A stretch of 64,000 nt of DNA from Carya illinoinensis (Eukaryota; Streptophyta; Magnoliopsida; Fagales; Juglandaceae), in the NCBI RefSeq assembly GCF_018687715.1, contig NC_056767.1, positions 25,469,501 through 25,533,500 on the forward strand, read 5' to 3'. The notes below the pieces were generated by a model that was not told where the DNA came from, made no database searches, and saw only the letters and a list, made by a program, of their open reading frames with translations. Position 1 is the first letter of the stretch. Each line of letters begins with the position of its first letter. The translations under genes and the position numbers were made by a program. This document shows positions 40,427-50,605 of the stretch, piece after piece.

Positions 40427-42627
40427 ATGGCTGTTTTTGCTTCTTCTGTTGCCTTCATCTACCATCACAAGTTGTTTTCATCAAGTTTGATGGTATTAAC
40501 TTCCTTGCCTGGAGTGCTCAATTACTTCCTCTTTTTCATAGCTATGGCTTGATGAGGATTGTTGATGGTTCCAATTCCTACCCTCCTCAATTTTCTAGCG
40601 ATGAATTGAAAGCCCTAGGTGTCCTTAATTCTACTTATGTGGTTTGGCAATATAAGGACCAAACGGTGCTTGGCTGGATAGTTTCAGCTTTATCTCCTGT
40701 AGTTGTTTCTACCATTTTTGGTCTGAAAACATCTTGGCCTGCTTGGCAGGCTCTTGTCTTGTGTTTTGTTGCACCTTCAACCTCTCGTATTTCTCTCATC
40801 AAGAGAAAACTTCAATCCCTCTAACAAGACACCATGTCTTGCTAGAGTTTCTTGGATGAAGTCAAATCTCTTTCTGATGAGCTGTCGACTGTTGGCAAAC
40901 CAATTGATGATTCATATTTAATTCTTTACGTGCTCAATGGACTCAATTCTTCTTTTCACTCATTTGTCATGACTTACATGTTGCTTGCTAAGGAGAAGTC
41001 CATGTTATTCTTTGATTTTCATGATGAGCTACAAAATTATGATCTCATGCAGAAGTTTCACCATCAATCCATTCAACTCAAGACTTGTTCTTATGCTCTC
41101 TACTCTAAAAAATCCGGCTCCAAGCCAGGAGCCCGCAACAACAACAGTTCTCAATCTTTAGGATCTTCCAAGACTCATGGATCGGTCACCTCTCTTTCCC
41201 GTTTTTGGCAACCTCTGCCTCACTTGCCTTCTTCAACATCTGCATTTGTGCAGTCTGACTCTCGTTCTCGCTCTCCTTGTTAGATCTGCAAGAGAGAAAA
41301 TCATCAGGCACTAGTTTGTTTTAACTGCATGAATTATGCTTATCAAGGGCAGCATCCTTCAACAAAATTGGTTGTTATGGTTGTTAAGCCCAATACTACC
41401 AATCTAAATCAGCATGAATGGTATGCTGATAGTGGTGCTAATGTTCATGTTACTTTAGATGTGGCTAATTTTGTGACCTCTCAACCTTATGAAGGTGATG
41501 ACTTCGTGGGCTTAGGTAATGGGGCAGGTTTGATCATCTCACACACTGTCAACGCAACCATAAAAACTCCTTCCTCTTCTCTTGCTTTAAATGATGTTGC
41601 TTATTGTCCTCAAGCTTCTTCATATCTTCTTTCCATCAATAAATTTTGTAAAGATAATAATGTTATGTTTGAGCTCATTGGTTCAAATTTTTCAATAAGG
41701 ACATCATGATGGGGGACACGCTCATGATGGGGCCAAGTGATAACGGATTTTTCCCGATCAACCTTCGTCAACTTTCTTTATCTAAGTTTCATGCCCTCAC
41801 CATGACTGTTGGCGTCAAGGCTTCAACCTCCACTTGGGATTGTCGTCTCGGACATCCATCAACAGTAACTCTTCATCATGTCCTTCATAATTTTTCTCTT
41901 CTTGTTAGTGATTTACTCAATAAATAGTCCATTTGTGTGTCTTGTCAACTAGGAAAGTCTAAGCAGTTGCCTTTCTCTTATTCTTCAAAAGAATCAACAG
42001 TTACTCTAGAGTTAATCCATTTAGATGTGTGGTCCATTTCCACTCCGTCGTTGAGTGGTTGTCATTATTATGTAATCTTTATTAACGATTTTACTTGTTT
42101 TTGTTGGTTATTTCCCAATTCTAATAAATCCAATGTTTATGGTACATTCATTAAATTCAAACTCTTAGTGAAAAAACAATTTACTTATCCCATTAAGCAA
42201 TTTCAAAGTGACAATGGTGATGAATATTGTCCTACCATTTTTGAACAGTTTTTGAGTGCTAATGGGATTTTCCATCGCTTATCATGTCCTCACACCTCTC
42301 AACAAAACAGCCTTGCCGAGAGGAAGCACTATCATATAGTTGAAATGAGATTCTAGCTTACCCAAGAAATTTTGGGTTGATGCTTTCTTAACATTTGTCT
42401 TTATCATCAATTGTTTGCATACCAAAGTTCTTAATTTTTCATAACCCTTTGAACATCTTTTCAATCTTCATCCTGATTTTAATTACTTTCGGTCATTTGG
42501 TTGTTAGTGTTTTCCCTGTCTTCGTCCTTACATGCTTGATAAACTTTCTTATTGTAGCACACCCCACATCTTCATAGGTTAGTCCTCTAACCACAGGGGC
42601 TTTCGGTGCTTTGATCCTTCCACCAGA
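40427..42627 (+). pseudogene. Copia-3 gag, protease and integrase remnant
   Basis: Pieces in order: gag (NFLAWSAQLLPLF-like start, then DEVKSLSDELSTVGKPIDD), protease (WYADSGANVHVT near 41420), the pre-integrase motif (CRLGHPSTVTLHHVL near 41840), integrase (LIHLDVWS, QFQSDNGDEY, TSQQNSLAERKH) and the integrase tail (FDPSTR at 42620). Several stops and frame changes split it. No complete zinc knuckle is visible in gag. It is not functional. Confidence 0.85.
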
Positions 42628-44929: not shown

Positions 44930-45158
44930 TTATATTTCCTGAAATGTGATATTTGATGAGGCTGGTTTTCCTGCTCGTGTACAATCTTTTATCACTGACT
45001 CTGGCAACAACGTGACATCGTCAGGTACTTCTTAACCCTTACTTGTTTCTCTTCCTTCACATATCTGACCTTCATCTTCTACATCCTCTCTAATTTTTGA
45101 CGTACTTTCCTTCCTATATTGCCTACTACAAATATCACCCCTGCCTCACCCGAATCTC
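44930..45158 (+). pseudogene. Copia-3 integrase-to-RT linker between the two insertions
   Basis: After the solo LTR the host reading resumes with HVYIS and NVIFDEAGFPAR, the usual text after the integrase tail in this Copia type. It then runs into a Ser/Pro-rich linker until the chimeric element at 45159. Confidence 0.7.
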
Positions 45159-45559
45159 TGTAACATGTCAGTTACTTCAACAATGGGGGACCCAAGCTAT
45201 AGTGGGCTTAGGTGGGATAATAAGGGTTAGTAGTAGGCCCAGCCCATGGGTTAATTGTCTACTGGTGGCCATTTATTTTATTTACGAGTTAGTGTTGATT
45301 TGGGCCATGTCCCATATATAGATATTAGGATTGTTGTTTTATTTTACTATTTGGCTAAGATTGGCCTTGGGCCCATTAGTTAGTAAGAGCAAGTGAGTAT
45401 TTGTAGAGGCGTTGGAGACACTTGAAGATCATCCAGAAAATTAATGCAAATTCTATTTCTCTTTCTTTTATCATCTTCTTCCTTTCTTTAATGGAGGTGC
45501 TCCCCTCGAAGTGAGCAATTTCTATGTATTTTTCTTTAAGCAACTTGAGGTGTGTTACA
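45159..45559 (+). repeat. 5' LTR of the chimeric element
   Basis: This 401-bp LTR has TATATAGATATTAGG near 45314 as a possible TATA region and a stretch AGAAAATTAATGCAAATTC further in. It is identical in length to the 3' LTR. Confidence 0.93.
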
Positions 45560-45575
45560 ATTGGTATCCCGAGCT
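45560..45575 (+). other. Primer-binding-like site of the chimeric element
   Basis: ATTGGTATCCCGAGCT lies directly after the 5' LTR. It resembles TTGGTATCAGAGC with two to three changes, consistent with an initiator-Met tRNA primer. Confidence 0.65.
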
Positions 45576-46359
45576 AGTCTTTCCTTGGCATCAACTTCAT
45601 CAATCCATAAAAATGGAACAAATCATCTCATCCTTGCTCAATATCAAAGAGCTACTGGAACAAAAATCTTCAACGCTTTGACGTTCTCCAGCAACATTTG
45701 AATGATTTTCGGGGCAGCCACAATAAAATGCATGAAGTATTTCGATAGCATATGAACGAATGGGAGAGTAACTTCAACGAAAGCTTCAACCAGTTGGAGG
45801 ATCAAATCGGTGAAATAGGGATAGCACGTGCAATACAGGAAGAGCAACAGATCTGTGTGATGCATGAAGACGAAGAACAAGCAATGGCAAAGTCCTTGCC
45901 CCATTTCATCTTCGACCCAAGCTCTCTCTCTCAAATCCCGATTTCTTCTCCACCACAATGGATTTCTTTCCCTCAGCTAGCCTCGGCTCTGTCTTGGGGG
46001 CCATCAAAATTGTCCTTTCTTAGGAAACAACTGCAAATAGAGACGCGACAACGAGAGAAGGAGCATGTAAGTTCATCCACTGGGAACGATTCTCGTGGCA
46101 CCAGATGGAGTTTTGACCCTTGTGGAACAGTTATTGGGTGCACAATTGATCTGGACCGAAAACCTACTCAACAATCAAAACCAACTAAAGCTCTAAAACT
46201 CCTCCAATCTCTTAGACCCATCCATCTTCCCGATAACCAACAACCAAACCCAAATGAGAATGAAGGTCAAAGCTCCACTAACTCCAATCGAGAAGAATAT
46301 GGAAAACAAGCCTTCCAGGTTTTCAACAAAATACAATCGTGGGACCGGTCCTTCCCGTT

Positions 46360-46440
46360 AAAGAATTCCTGCAATCTTGATGAGGCTATTACCCATGGTG
46401 CTACAATCCAGGCTGCTAATTTGTGTGACGTGGGTAACAA
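46360..46440 (+). pseudogene. Captured segment resembling HSP70
   Basis: The frame reads NSCNLDEAITHGATIQAANL. HSP70 proteins have CKSINPDEAVAYGAAVQAA at the end of the ATPase domain. The match is short but follows the conserved spacing. It is in the element's main frame. Confidence 0.5.
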
Positions 46441-46552
46441 GAACATATTGATTTCCAAGTACACAGCTCAACCGTTTCATCCATACCCAGATATATTGAA
46501 GGAATACCCAGACTGCGTCAAGCTCATTTTTCGGGAATGCAAAGCATTTCAA

Positions 46553-46690
46553 ATGTCTCTGTATATTGGTAATTTGTCGGCTGAAACTCGGAGAGATGAA
46601 CTTGAAAATGTTTTCTGAAGGTTTGGGCGCTGCAGTGCACAGTTTAAGAAAGATGGGTATAGGTTTGTAGTATTTAACTACCGTTTGGAT
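46553..46690 (+). pseudogene. Captured RRM segment (SR/RNA-binding protein-like)
   Basis: The RNP2 strand is SLYIGNLS, followed by TRRDELENVF, a TGA, RFGRC, and an RNP1-like KDGYRFVVF. This is the first two-thirds of an RRM of the type found in plant arginine/serine-rich splicing factors. The TGA stands where such proteins have Arg, consistent with CGA to TGA. Confidence 0.65.
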
Positions 46691-46977
46691 GTAGCTAGTG
46701 ATTTGTTTGATGAAATGCATGAAGGGACCCTTGCTGATGCCGCAGAGCACATTTTTCAGTTCAATGAAGAAGACCCCAACACTAATGCCCACCTTGCTGA
46801 GAATTTAAGGGGTAAGAAATTTTTTGCTCGTCCTATGCTTGTTGTATTGCTGCTAAGGGGTGTTTTTGAGCCCTTTGATAGAGGAGGGGAGCATATCCTT
46901 GTTTTTCCTTGTATCAATATCAGAGGCATGTTCTATGTTGGAGATGGTACATTGATTGGAATTATTGACATAAGGAT

Positions 46978-47060
46978 GAAGGGGACCCGCCAGATTGTTG
47001 GTTGGCCACCAATAAGATTAATTATGAAGAATTCATTGGCCACCACTTCGACGAATAAAT
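46978..47060 (+). pseudogene. Captured Aux/IAA domain II segment
   Basis: The frame reads [20 protein letters not shown] then [28 protein letters not shown] is the domain II degron region of Aux/IAA repressors, bound by TIR1/AFB in auxin signalling. The GWPPIR core is intact. Confidence 0.85.
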
Positions 47061-47519
47061 CCATGATTCTTGCAATTGATGGCACAAGGAAAAGTAAAGA
47101 AAGTGGGGATACCCACAATGATGTTGATGGTGCCATGGTGGGTCAGGTGATTATTGTTAAAGATAATTATTTGCTAACACCTATTGATCTTGTTGCTCGA
47201 GCACTCCTTAATGGTGGGGTTTTTGTGAAACATCGTAGGCCAGCTGAGACAAATTGCTTTATTGGTGGAGGGTCATGGAAAAATCTCATGGTTTTACAAG
47301 TTTTAGTAGATAAGAAAGTTACTCCTCTGTTGCTCAATAAATTGTTACATAGAACTGTTTTTGAGTGGCCTGGGATTATTGGGACTGTTGTGCAGAGAAT
47401 TCCCTTAAAAAATACATTCGGCCCCTCTTTGAACACAATATGTTTACCTGCTTTACTTATTGGTATAATGCCACCTCATTGGCCCTTTGATAGGGGGAGA
47501 GAAAGAAATCATGCGGGGA

Positions 47520-47740
47520 TTCATATAGATGGAAGAGTTCTTTCGGGTAGAAGTGTTGTTGATGAATCCATGATTATAGGAGAATCACTTCCTGTACGTG
47601 AAGAAAAAGGCCTCACGGTCTCTGTTGGGACAATTAATTGGGATGGTCCTTTGAGGATTGAAGTCTTCTCCATAGGCACCAACTCAACGAGGTCCAAGCT
47701 TTGTCTCATGGTTGAGGCTATTGCAAACAAGCTTGCAATT
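47520..47740 (+). pseudogene. Captured copper P-type ATPase (PAA2/HMA8-like) segment
   Basis: The frame reads [15 protein letters not shown], then [15 protein letters not shown] and [13 protein letters not shown]. This is the actuator domain of P1B ATPases. The family's TGES dephosphorylation motif is IGES here. The chloroplast copper transporter PAA2/HMA8 has nearly the same text ([24 protein letters not shown]). The phosphorylation domain is absent. Confidence 0.85.
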
Positions 47741-47975
47741 TCAGTCAACATTAGCATTCCAACTTCTAAGCCATTGCTAAATCACGGAGGAGAGATTTAT
47801 GAAATTAATAAATTTAATGAAAGCCCATCACGAGGTTTTTGGATCTTTGGGTGGGAAGCCTTTGAAGAGACAAATGATGAAGTTGTCAAAGCTAGAGCTA
47901 CGGTTGCAGAGCAGTTCACTGAGGAAGCCATGAAAGTCGCTGTTCAGAAGGCTAAAGAGAGACTCACAAAGGCCC

Positions 47976-48185
47976 CCTATGCCAATAGTCTTCAGCAATT
48001 TAAAGACCCTGTAAACCCGAAGACCCATTATGAGACCACTGGACCAGAGATCTGGAAAGACTCTAGTGGGAAGGTTGATGCATTTGTGTCTAGGACAGGA
48101 ACTGGCAGGACAATAACAGGTGCAGGGAAGTATCTCAAGGAGCAAAATTCCAATGTTAAGCTTTATGGGGTTGAATCAGTTGAAC
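47976..48185 (+). pseudogene. Captured cysteine synthase (O-acetylserine thiol-lyase) segment
   Basis: The frame reads [20 protein letters not shown], then [16 protein letters not shown] and [19 protein letters not shown]. Plant cysteine synthases have [21 protein letters not shown] and the PLP phosphate-binding loop GIGTGGT, which reads RTGTGRT here. About 70 residues of the roughly 320-residue enzyme are present. Confidence 0.9.
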
Positions 48186-48388
48186 GTGCTCCTCAATTGC
48201 TTGATTTTTTGCCACTTAAAGTTGTTTTTAAGCCCTTTGATAGAGGAAGAAAAAAATATTCCTGTGCTCGTGAACGTGCTCTACAAAAGCTTCTTAGTTC
48301 CCAACTTAAGAAGAAGAAGCTTGTCTCATCTACAAAGGAAAGGTTGAAGCATAAGACTCATAACTGCACCTTGGGGACAAGGTGCTTT

Positions 48389-48402
48389 GAAGGGGAAGGG
48401 TT
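48389..48402 (+). other. Polypurine tract of the chimeric element
   Basis: GAAGGGGAAGGGTT ends directly at the 3' LTR start TGTAAC. It is a typical plus-strand primer tract. Confidence 0.85.
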
Positions 48403-48803
48403 TGTAACATGTCAGTTACTTCAACAATGGGGGACCCAAGCTATAGTGGGCTTAGGTGGGATAATAAGGGTTAGTAGTGGGCCCAGCCCATGGGTTAATT
48501 GTCTACTGGTGGCCATTTATTTTATTTACTAGTTAGTGTTGATTTGGGCCATGTCCCATATATAGATATTAGGATTGTTGTTTTATTTTACTGTTTGGCT
48601 AAGATTGGCCTTGGGCCCATTAGTTAGTAAGAGCAAGTGAGTATTTGTAGAGGCGTTGGAGACACTTGAAGATCATCCAGAAAATTAATGCAAATTCTAT
48701 TTCTCTTTCTTTTATCATCTTCTTCCTTTCTTTAATGGAGGTGCTCCCCTCGAAGTGAGCAATTTCTATGTATTTTTCTTTAAGCAACTTGAGGTGTGTT
48801 ACA
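48403..48803 (+). repeat. 3' LTR of the chimeric element
   Basis: This 401-bp LTR differs from the 5' LTR at about three positions (AGTAGTGGGCCC for AGTAGTAGGCCC, TTACTAGTTAG for TTACGAGTTAG, TACTGTTTGG for TACTATTTGG). Confidence 0.93.
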
Positions 48804-50605
48804 GTCTCCCTTAGAATCTCCCACATCTACAACACATATTACCTCTGTCACATCAAAGCATCTCTTAGACACTCATTCCACACCTTTCTTTAGCAACACT
48901 GTTGAACCCCAGCTTCCTACTCCTACCGTTTCTACCTCTTCCTCTCATGTTATCACTAGGCCCCAAACTTCATTTTAAGCCATGGAATTACCTTGATTTC
49001 CATTGATATTATTCAACCTGTCACCCTCTTGGAGCCTTGCATGCAAGTGCCATCATTTATGAGCCACGTACTTATGCTCAAGCGGCGTCTATGCCTGAGT
49101 GGCATGCAGCTTTGGAGAATGAGTTGTAGGCATTATTGAAGAATGAAACCTAAACTTTGTGTCCCCATCCACCAGATAAGAATGTGGTTCCCAACAAATG
49201 GGTTTTTAAGCCCAAACGCAGACCTAATGGGAGCAGTGAACGTCTCAAGGCAAGGTTAGTGGCTATTGGCTATCTCCAACGTAGTGGAATTAATTTCCAT
49301 GATACATTCAGTCTAGTTATCAAGCTATCTACGGTTCACATGGTTCTAGCACTTGCTATTTCTTTCAACTGGGAAATTCGGTAACTAGATGTTTCAAACT
49401 CACTACATCATGGTATTTTGGAGAAGGAGGTTGATATGGCACAATCAAAAGGCTTTGAGAATCCTGCGCATCCACAGTTTGTGTGTAAACTTCACAAATC
49501 TATCTATGGCTTGAAACAAGCCCCTCGGGCTTGGTTTAATAGATTATCCACTACTCTTTTGTCCCTCGAATTTGTAAGTTTTTAGGTCGATCCCTCTTTA
49601 TTCACTTATCACCTTGAATCTGTACACGTGTTCTTGTTGGTATATGTGGATGACATCTTTGTGACTTCTAACGATTGGGCTTTCATGAACTCTTTAATCT
49701 CCAAGCTGCAACTTGACTTTGCTATGAAGGACCTTGGTCAGTTGTCCTATTTCCTAGGTATTGAAGCCATCCATGATTCTTCAGGCCTACAGCTTCGACA
49801 AACATGGTATGTTATTGATCTCTTGGATCATGTCAAACTCCTTGGCATCCGTCCTTACCATGCTCCATATATTTCAGGTTCTAAATTTTCCAAATTTGAT
49901 GAAGATCTTCTATCCGATCCTTCATAATATCATCACAGAGTAGGTGCTTTACAATATGTAACTCTCACTCGCCTAGATAGAGCCTACTCCATGAATCGGC
50001 TATCTCAACACATTCAGGCTCCAACCACTGCTCATTGGACAGTAGCCAAATGAGTGCTGCATTATTTGAAAAATACCCTAGATTATGGTCTTTTCTACAA
50101 ACCTGGACCCTTCTCTATTAATGCCTATTGTGACTTTGACTGGGCTAGTGATCCTGACAACAAAAGATCGACGTGCAGTTATGGAGTTTACGTTGATCCT
50201 AATCGCATCTCTTGGTCATCAAAGAAACAACCTGTGGTTGCCAAATCCAGTACTGGGGCTGAATACAAATGTCTAGCTAGCATTGTTTACAACTGAGGTT
50301 TATTGGCTACGTATGCTCTTATGTGGGCTGCAAATTTCTCTTGATTCTCCTCCCGTTGTTTGGTGCGATAATATTAGTTCTCTTGCACTTGCCTTAAATC
50401 CCATTTTTCATGAAAGATCTGAACACATTGAAGTGGGTTACCACTTTGTACGTGAAAAAGTAGCAAATTGAGACACTATTTTGGAACACATTTGCACTTT
50501 TCTTCAACCTGCGGATATCTTTACTAAAGGTCATACAGCTGATAGATTCTACTTCCTTCATGACGAACTGTCCATTTCAGACCTTCCTGTCAGTTTGCGG
50601 GTGAA
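48804..50605 (+). pseudogene. Copia-3 reverse transcriptase and RNase H remnant
   Basis: The Ser/Thr-rich linker continues (SSSHVITRPQTSF), followed by reverse transcriptase (MPEWHAALENEL, NKWVFKPKRRPNGS, KSIYGLKQAPRAW, LLVYVDDIFVTS) and RNase H (YCDFDWASDPDNKRST, ISWSSKKQPVVAKSSTGAEY, ADIFTKGHTADRF). In-frame stops include a TAG and a TAA near 49128-49153, a TAA near 49381 and others. A purine-rich GCGGGTGAA precedes the 3' LTR. Confidence 0.88.

Follow-up and report, generated by a model that had tools for sequence, protein, structure and literature searches.

Positions 45159 to 48803 of a 64,000-nucleotide stretch of the pecan (Carya illinoinensis) genome (C16:25469501-25533500; hereafter the window) hold a long terminal repeat (LTR) retrotransposon whose interior is a mosaic of host gene pieces. 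The element most probably (probability about 0.83) belongs to a non-autonomous, gene-capturing family, in which host pieces were added by template switching and reshuffled between members. This reading is built on the anatomy of the element, on five host donors located in the same genome, on three exact intron losses, on the native frames of the pieces, on the cargo of related elements, and on a shared junction between a PAA2/HMA8-type copper ATPase (HMA8) piece and an autoinhibited Ca2+-ATPase (ACA) piece. All genome comparisons were made against 674 Mb in 17 contigs.

Structure of the element

The element has direct LTRs with TG..CA ends (TGTAACA...TGTTACA), a tRNA primer site and a purine tract, as LTR retrotransposons do (Table 1). 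A preliminary description, made from the sequence alone, had reported paired 401-bp LTRs with about three differences, a primer-like site, a purine tract and no pol. The LTRs differ by exactly 3 substitutions in 401 bp (LTR positions 77, 128 and 191; 99.25% identity), and the primer-like site and purine tract were both located. We take the primer-like site to be of the iMet type; in related elements it reads AGTGGTATCCAGAGCC. The putative target duplication agrees in 4/5 bp (ATCTC vs GTCTC). No gag or pol domain was found by Pfam in the two long frames of the element, which is classed as non-autonomous for that reason. These two parts of the mosaic frame are separated by a single TGA, and the upstream leader frame is also interrupted. 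The longest stop-free run of the interior is 594 codons; in 500 dinucleotide shuffles, the longest reached was 254 codons and the average 99.

Host donors of the captured pieces

The interior had been proposed to consist of at least five host gene fragments, and DNA matches within the same genome support this: five donors lie on five different contigs, with 84-92% DNA identity and all in sense orientation. The donor search compared three interior pieces with the genome as DNA, 46885-47485 lying outside that search. Three of the fragments named earlier were recovered with their host genes, namely an RRM piece (89% DNA identity), the HMA8 piece and a cysteine synthase piece. The HMA8 piece has a Pfam E1-E2 ATPase match (1e-12), is matched by PAA2 proteins, and aligns with exons on C15 in two blocks, 47531-47642 (89%) and 47641-47713 (88%), with 12 additional bases that look like the end of the preceding exon. 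The cysteine synthase piece (Pfam E 3e-16; PDB 2.8e-33) aligns with its C7 donor in three blocks, 47929-48022 (84%), 48021-48163 (89%) and 48154-48189 (92%). Two donors go beyond the earlier list, a KAPA-synthase-like gene and the ACA gene; the former match lies within one exon on C3, in a frame reading METMSFWDNLVEEALVKLESLKLLRSLRPI.., and was identified as KAPA synthase by eye. All five located donors, and all 8/8 aligned blocks, are in their native frame, an outcome with a chance of about 1/81 for the five if the captures were independent.

The HSP70 and Aux/IAA labels of the preliminary description are weaker than the others. When the HSP70-like piece was searched alone as protein, HSP70 chains appeared at E 1.3 or worse and other proteins ranked higher, so that the label is not significant by itself. 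Its backing comes from another, decayed element (L060), in which the matching stretch stands in line with HSP70-like sequence (by eye), and in which a neighbouring frame has a Pfam HSP70 match of 0.006. For the Aux/IAA domain II piece there is a Pfam match (0.0012), with a score below the Pfam cut-off.

Table 1. Features of the element and its flanks (window positions)
Feature	Position	Strand	Remarks
Left flank ATCTC	45154..45158	.	4/5 bp match to right flank
5' LTR	45159..45559	+	401 bp
Primer-binding-site-like stretch, TGGTATCccGAGC	45562..45577	+	Mismatches against the family form
Leader frame start MEQIISSLLNIKELLEQ..., broken in the window	45612..45681	+	By eye; same start in L011, L014 and walnut P0121
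Mosaic frame, first open part	45749..46615	+	289 residues; open reading frame list
KAPA-synthase-like piece (name by eye)	46188..46352	+	Donor C3:9386359-9386523, 88%
HSP70-like piece (weak label)	46356..46488	+	Best match C4:21515464, 84%, inside another decayed element
Piece common to another decayed element	46500..46552	+	C5:9193649, 83%; GTAGTTTC comes next there
RRM piece	46553..46694	+	Donor exon C10:1376448-1376595, 89%; begins at donor 3' splice site TTTTGCAG/ATG
Mosaic frame, second open part	46619..48529	+	637 residues, extends into 3' LTR; open reading frame list
Connector 1	46794..46890	+	Sequence comparison
Aux/IAA domain II-like piece (weak label)	46985..47065	+	Pfam 0.0012, below cut-off
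Connector 2	47451..47519	+	Sequence comparison
PAA2/HMA8 piece	47519..47709	+	C15:23196297-23195861 (minus), two whole-or-part exons; 252-bp intron absent
ACA piece (name by eye)	47710..47873	+	Donor C8:5402549-5402386, 89%; Cation_ATPase_N 1.4e-11
51-base stretch	47878..47928	+	96% common to C10 element L021, where it adjoins a connector
Cysteine synthase piece	47929..48189	+	Donor C7:913632-914055, three exons; introns of 76 and 75 bp absent
Connector 3	48187..48257	+	Sequence comparison
Interior 3' end, containing the purine tract	48314..48402	+	73% like L014; sequence match
Purine tract GAAGGGGAAGGG	48389..48400	+	Sequence
3' LTR	48403..48803	+	401 bp
Right flank GTCTC	48804..48808	.	4/5 bp match to left flank

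Spliced templates, junctions and age

The earlier suggestion that the pieces lack introns and were captured from RNA holds for the HMA8 and cysteine synthase pieces. The introns within captured pieces, one in HMA8 and two in cysteine synthase, are absent in 3/3 cases exactly at their GT/AG borders. In HMA8, the donor reads ..AAATTGG/GTATG..TTTCAG/GATGGTCC and the window ..AATTGG/GATGGTCC (slashes mark exon borders); at the first cysteine synthase intron, the donor reads ..CCAAAG/GTATAA..TTTAG/ATCCATT and the window ..CCGAAG/ACCCATT; and at the second, ..GTTAAG/GTTCGC..TTTAG/CTTTATGG has become ..GTTAAG/CTTTATGG. The templates of these two donors were therefore spliced, which speaks against capture of their pieces straight from the genes. 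The KAPA-synthase-like, RRM and ACA pieces each lie within a single exon and are uninformative on splicing.

At the junction between HMA8 and ACA, the window reads ..CATGGTTGAGG.. and the ACA gene ..GAGGTTGAGG..; one sequence passes to the other inside a shared GGTTGAGG, the two genes being unlinked (C15 and C8), with no element sequence in between. The pieces have diverged from their donors by 8-16%, as compared with an LTR difference of 0.7%, and the captures are thus much older than this insertion. Plant substitution rates range from 2.5e-9 to 1.3e-8 per site and year, and 3/401 differences accordingly date the insertion to roughly 0.3-1.5 million years ago. Judged by eye, a copia element encloses this insertion, other sequence lying in between: a copia-type integrase-like frame (42003-42353) is seen on one side and a reverse-transcriptase-like frame (49586-49924) on the other.

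Related elements with other cargo

The preliminary description had raised the prospect of a family of such elements, and a genome search did recover others with related LTRs and different cargo. The LTR query matched at least 41 places, including the element's own two LTRs and mostly over the last 130 bp; this is a lower bound because only the best candidates were scored. Twenty stretches were fetched, covering 16 of the LTR-related places, with two neighbouring loci read as one in both L17_18 and L21_22. Relatives share the layout of the window element, and exact 5-bp duplications flank L011 (CCCAA), L17_18 (GATTC) and L21_22 (ACATA), with 4/5 bp at L010. In L009, L011 and L17_18, the part from the KAPA synthase piece to connector 1 is common with the window element at 87-90%; downstream of it, a COI1 segment of 144 residues follows in L011 (E 3.5e-42), and the cargo of L009 and L17_18 is COI1-like by eye. 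The C10 element L21_22 carries prenylcysteine lyase (2e-15), HSP70 (2e-10), AIR synthase (8e-10) and an MMR_HSR1 GTPase (7e-11); L012 carries an FAD-oxidase-type domain (3e-14), L013 HSP90 (2e-6), and L010 DUF629 (3e-6). The LTR pair of L013, with the borders assigned to it, has 58% identity and was left out of the verified pairs.

Comparison of copies, which had been suggested as a way to order the captures, does so for one junction. The C8 element L065 matches window positions 47342-47806 (connector 2, HMA8 and ACA) at 85% and then turns to CDPK (8.5e-11), where the window element turns to cysteine synthase; the HMA8-ACA join is therefore older than either addition.

Frames that resemble mosaics of this family have been annotated as proteins. 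A pecan protein from another pecan assembly (P0005) corresponds to the L009 frame at 553/557 residues. A 775-residue protein of walnut (Juglans regia LOC118348476; P0121) has, by eye, the leader and two connectors, together with a K+-transporter piece (1.9e-5, just under the Pfam cut-off) and a weak PHD-like piece (0.05); a GGTase-I-like piece was also seen in it by eye. Frames like the mosaics of this family, of which the walnut protein looks to be an example, stand as uncharacterised genes in public proteomes.

The paired LTRs of the C9 element L014 (C9:39424400-39433400) resemble the window LTR at about 70-72%. Its leader begins with MEEILASLLKIKEMVEQ, its 3' end is also similar, and broken copia-like frames lie between the two (by eye). 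L014 is possibly an autonomous relative, or else the host of a nested copia element. At a further locus (L023, C4:23918124-23918726), LTR-like stretches 74% like the window LTR lie head to head, in inverted orientation.

The recurrent connector

The window element contains three copies of a connector that ends in the core CCCTTTGATAGAGGAAGAGA (PFDRGRE). Among 38 sequences scanned, 25 yielded 38 matches to the core and 13 were without it. For column counts, 29 matches were kept and 9/38 removed as near-duplicates; identity was 0.95/0.87 in the core, a value inflated because matches were chosen at <=5/20 mismatches and 25 loci were fetched by connector similarity, 0.58-0.72 across the 60 bases before it, and 0.36-0.47 at greater distance. 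At least 5 different contexts precede the core. Many copies read GG/GTAAGAAATTTTT in their upstream part, which in L044 is placed after AGPase-type exon sequence; from this context, the upstream part may represent the start of a retained intron. The corresponding part of connector 1 (about 46811-46872), GG/GTAAGAAATTTTT...TGTTTTTGAG, resembles a short intron kept open in frame and perhaps derives from an AGPase intron.

The connector sequence CTTTGA(T)AGxGGAAG aligns with the purine tract at a score of 10. Among 80-base stretches sampled from the window, 1.9% score as high, and the resemblance is no more than suggestive of the connector being a copy of the tract. As a hypothesis, the connector could be a preferred seam for template switching.

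Twenty further loci found through the connector (L034-L053) were taken as stretches of about 3 kb with unverified LTRs. Among them, L047 and L052 match the LTR or leader, and L040, L045 and L052 match the 3' end. Their cargo includes an IMS-family polymerase (2e-18, L046), raffinose synthase (1.5e-6, L050), an AGPase-type nucleotidyl transferase (2.7e-6, L044) and WAPL (3e-6, L034). Six similar connector-bearing places (L034-L037, L039 and L051) lie within 0.46 Mb on C15 (32.40-32.85 Mb). WAPL is found there, as are, by eye, pieces resembling AGPase and TOPLESS; this cluster may have arisen by local amplification or duplication.

Mechanism and alternative explanations

According to the template-switching model, RNA of the element would depend on enzymes provided in trans for its packaging and copying, and host mRNAs would be copied together with it. 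The reverse transcriptase would switch templates at short shared stretches, joining pieces of spliced host messages; family members would then reshuffle cassettes among themselves by way of stretches that they have in common, the connector for example, and the open fused frame would be maintained by selection. The native frames of the pieces hint at such selection. Purifying selection on the mosaic frame was also considered and was dropped: the ratio of nonsynonymous to synonymous substitution rates (dN/dS) of the shared frame is 0.43, 0.57 and 0.46 in three pairs (observed transition/transversion ratio about 2.4), and neutral simulations with transition bias, whose medians are 0.59-0.77, reach these values in 1-47% of their runs.

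Several points weigh against this model. Depending on mutation bias and pair, 0.3-47% of neutral runs reach the observed dN/dS. The HSP70-like piece and the stretch 46500-46552 find their best matches in other decayed elements, not in host genes, and a processed retrocopy may have been the intermediate template for pieces. The search for an autonomous relative with the same LTR and primer site, proposed earlier, identified no such partner among the relatives, the copia-like frames of L014 being all broken (by eye). Lastly, the start of the RRM piece coincides exactly with a 3' splice site of the host, and the piece adjoining it is followed by GT in another element, a border that suits read-through plus splicing rather than template switching.

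This last border (46552/46553) bears on a somewhat unlikely alternative, in which an element lying in or near a host gene gives rise to a run-on transcript that is spliced, the chimeric RNA then being copied as in retroviral transduction. The piece that is followed by GTAGTTTC in the C5 element joins the RRM exon exactly at TTTTGCAG/ATG, as if a 5' splice site of the element had been joined to a 3' splice site of the host, and so both routes may act; intron loss is equally compatible with read-through. However, a separate element insertion would be needed near each donor, the KAPA-synthase-like piece starts and stops inside one exon, and HMA8 switches to ACA inside GGTTGAGG, between unlinked genes and with no element sequence between them. 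Capture as DNA, through a Helitron- or MULE-like process or repair fill-in, from genes or processed retrocopies whose introns were lost later or already absent, is improbable. It would accommodate pieces that have no fixed 5' or 3' structure and the connector part that resembles a retained intron start, and a processed retrocopy could have been the template of any piece; yet all three introns are exactly gone from pieces of two genes, the best matches are intron-bearing genes, sense order and native frame hold throughout, and the element ends in LTRs.

The long open frame, and the annotation of relatives as hypothetical genes in pecan and walnut, would also fit a host chimeric gene picked up whole by an LTR element, or a domesticated gene that the plant has retained. 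Behind the common leader, however, the cargo differs from member to member, the frame is interrupted by a TGA and again in the leader, and its dN/dS lies within reach of neutral simulations, which makes such an origin very improbable. An assembly artefact or chance similarity is barely credible: a single assembly of this locus was seen, but the 5' part, the 3' end and the HMA8-ACA join are also present in relatives elsewhere, and a second pecan assembly contains the L009 frame as well, so that for the family an artefact is already refuted.

A bolder extension of the template-switching model, and a rather doubtful one, is an exon-shuffling retroelement system of the Juglandaceae, in which cassettes closed by purine-rich connectors, acting as favoured seams for template switching, would be exchanged between co-packaged RNAs under selection for frame, yielding new multi-domain proteins. 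If true, this family would continually make and spread new multi-domain proteins from host mRNAs.

Comparison with known systems

TRIM, LARD and other non-autonomous LTR elements have no pol and retain the LTR, primer site and purine tract; unlike them, the window element has an interior of in-frame host coding sequence. In retroviral transduction of host genes, an LTR element whose own genes are lost acquires a copy of spliced host sequence. The window element likewise holds spliced host sequence, with no gag or pol domain found in its two long frames; it differs in being a plant retrotransposon that took up many unrelated genes serially, with no known selected function. Pack-MULEs, Helitrons and CACTA elements are DNA transposons carrying genomic pieces, whereas the window element is without donor introns and its ends are LTRs. 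Several gene pieces and chimeric frames are described for these transposons in the available portions of two sources (PMC1947982; PMC4289320).

Among LTR elements, host gene pieces are held in those of maize B73, rice and sorghum. As far as the available text goes, a maize B73 survey listed 425 LTR elements with gene fragments, from at least 189 captures, and, under its own conditions, none that combined fragments of two or more standard nuclear genes (PMC2774510); the window element differs from these in holding pieces of several. The available part of another account of LTR elements with gene fragments notes no multi-gene LTR element (PMC3726574). At the level of titles and the starts of abstracts, with subscription papers mostly outside the scope, the papers found by literature search name no multi-gene LTR family in Juglandaceae.

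The closest system is Bs1 of maize, for which the accessible portion of the source gives three transduced genes, an H+-ATPase, a xylan endohydrolase and a beta-1,3-glucanase (PMC13317346). Like Bs1, the window element has host gene pieces between its LTRs (five donors), of processed-RNA origin in the case of two donors and three introns, and a hybrid frame of the Bs1 kind is predicted from its sequence. Unlike Bs1, as described there, it has five located donors that are other genes, relatives of different cargo, and a recurrent connector. The different in-frame, multi-gene mosaics across the family would constitute a natural experiment in retroviral-type transduction and exon shuffling. Comparison of copies reveals the order of capture, the genome still contains the donors, and with the recurrent connector it becomes directly testable where reverse transcriptase changes template. 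Capture of genes by LTR elements was already known from Bs1; what is new here is that multi-gene capture has recurred within one family whose members have a putative seam in common.

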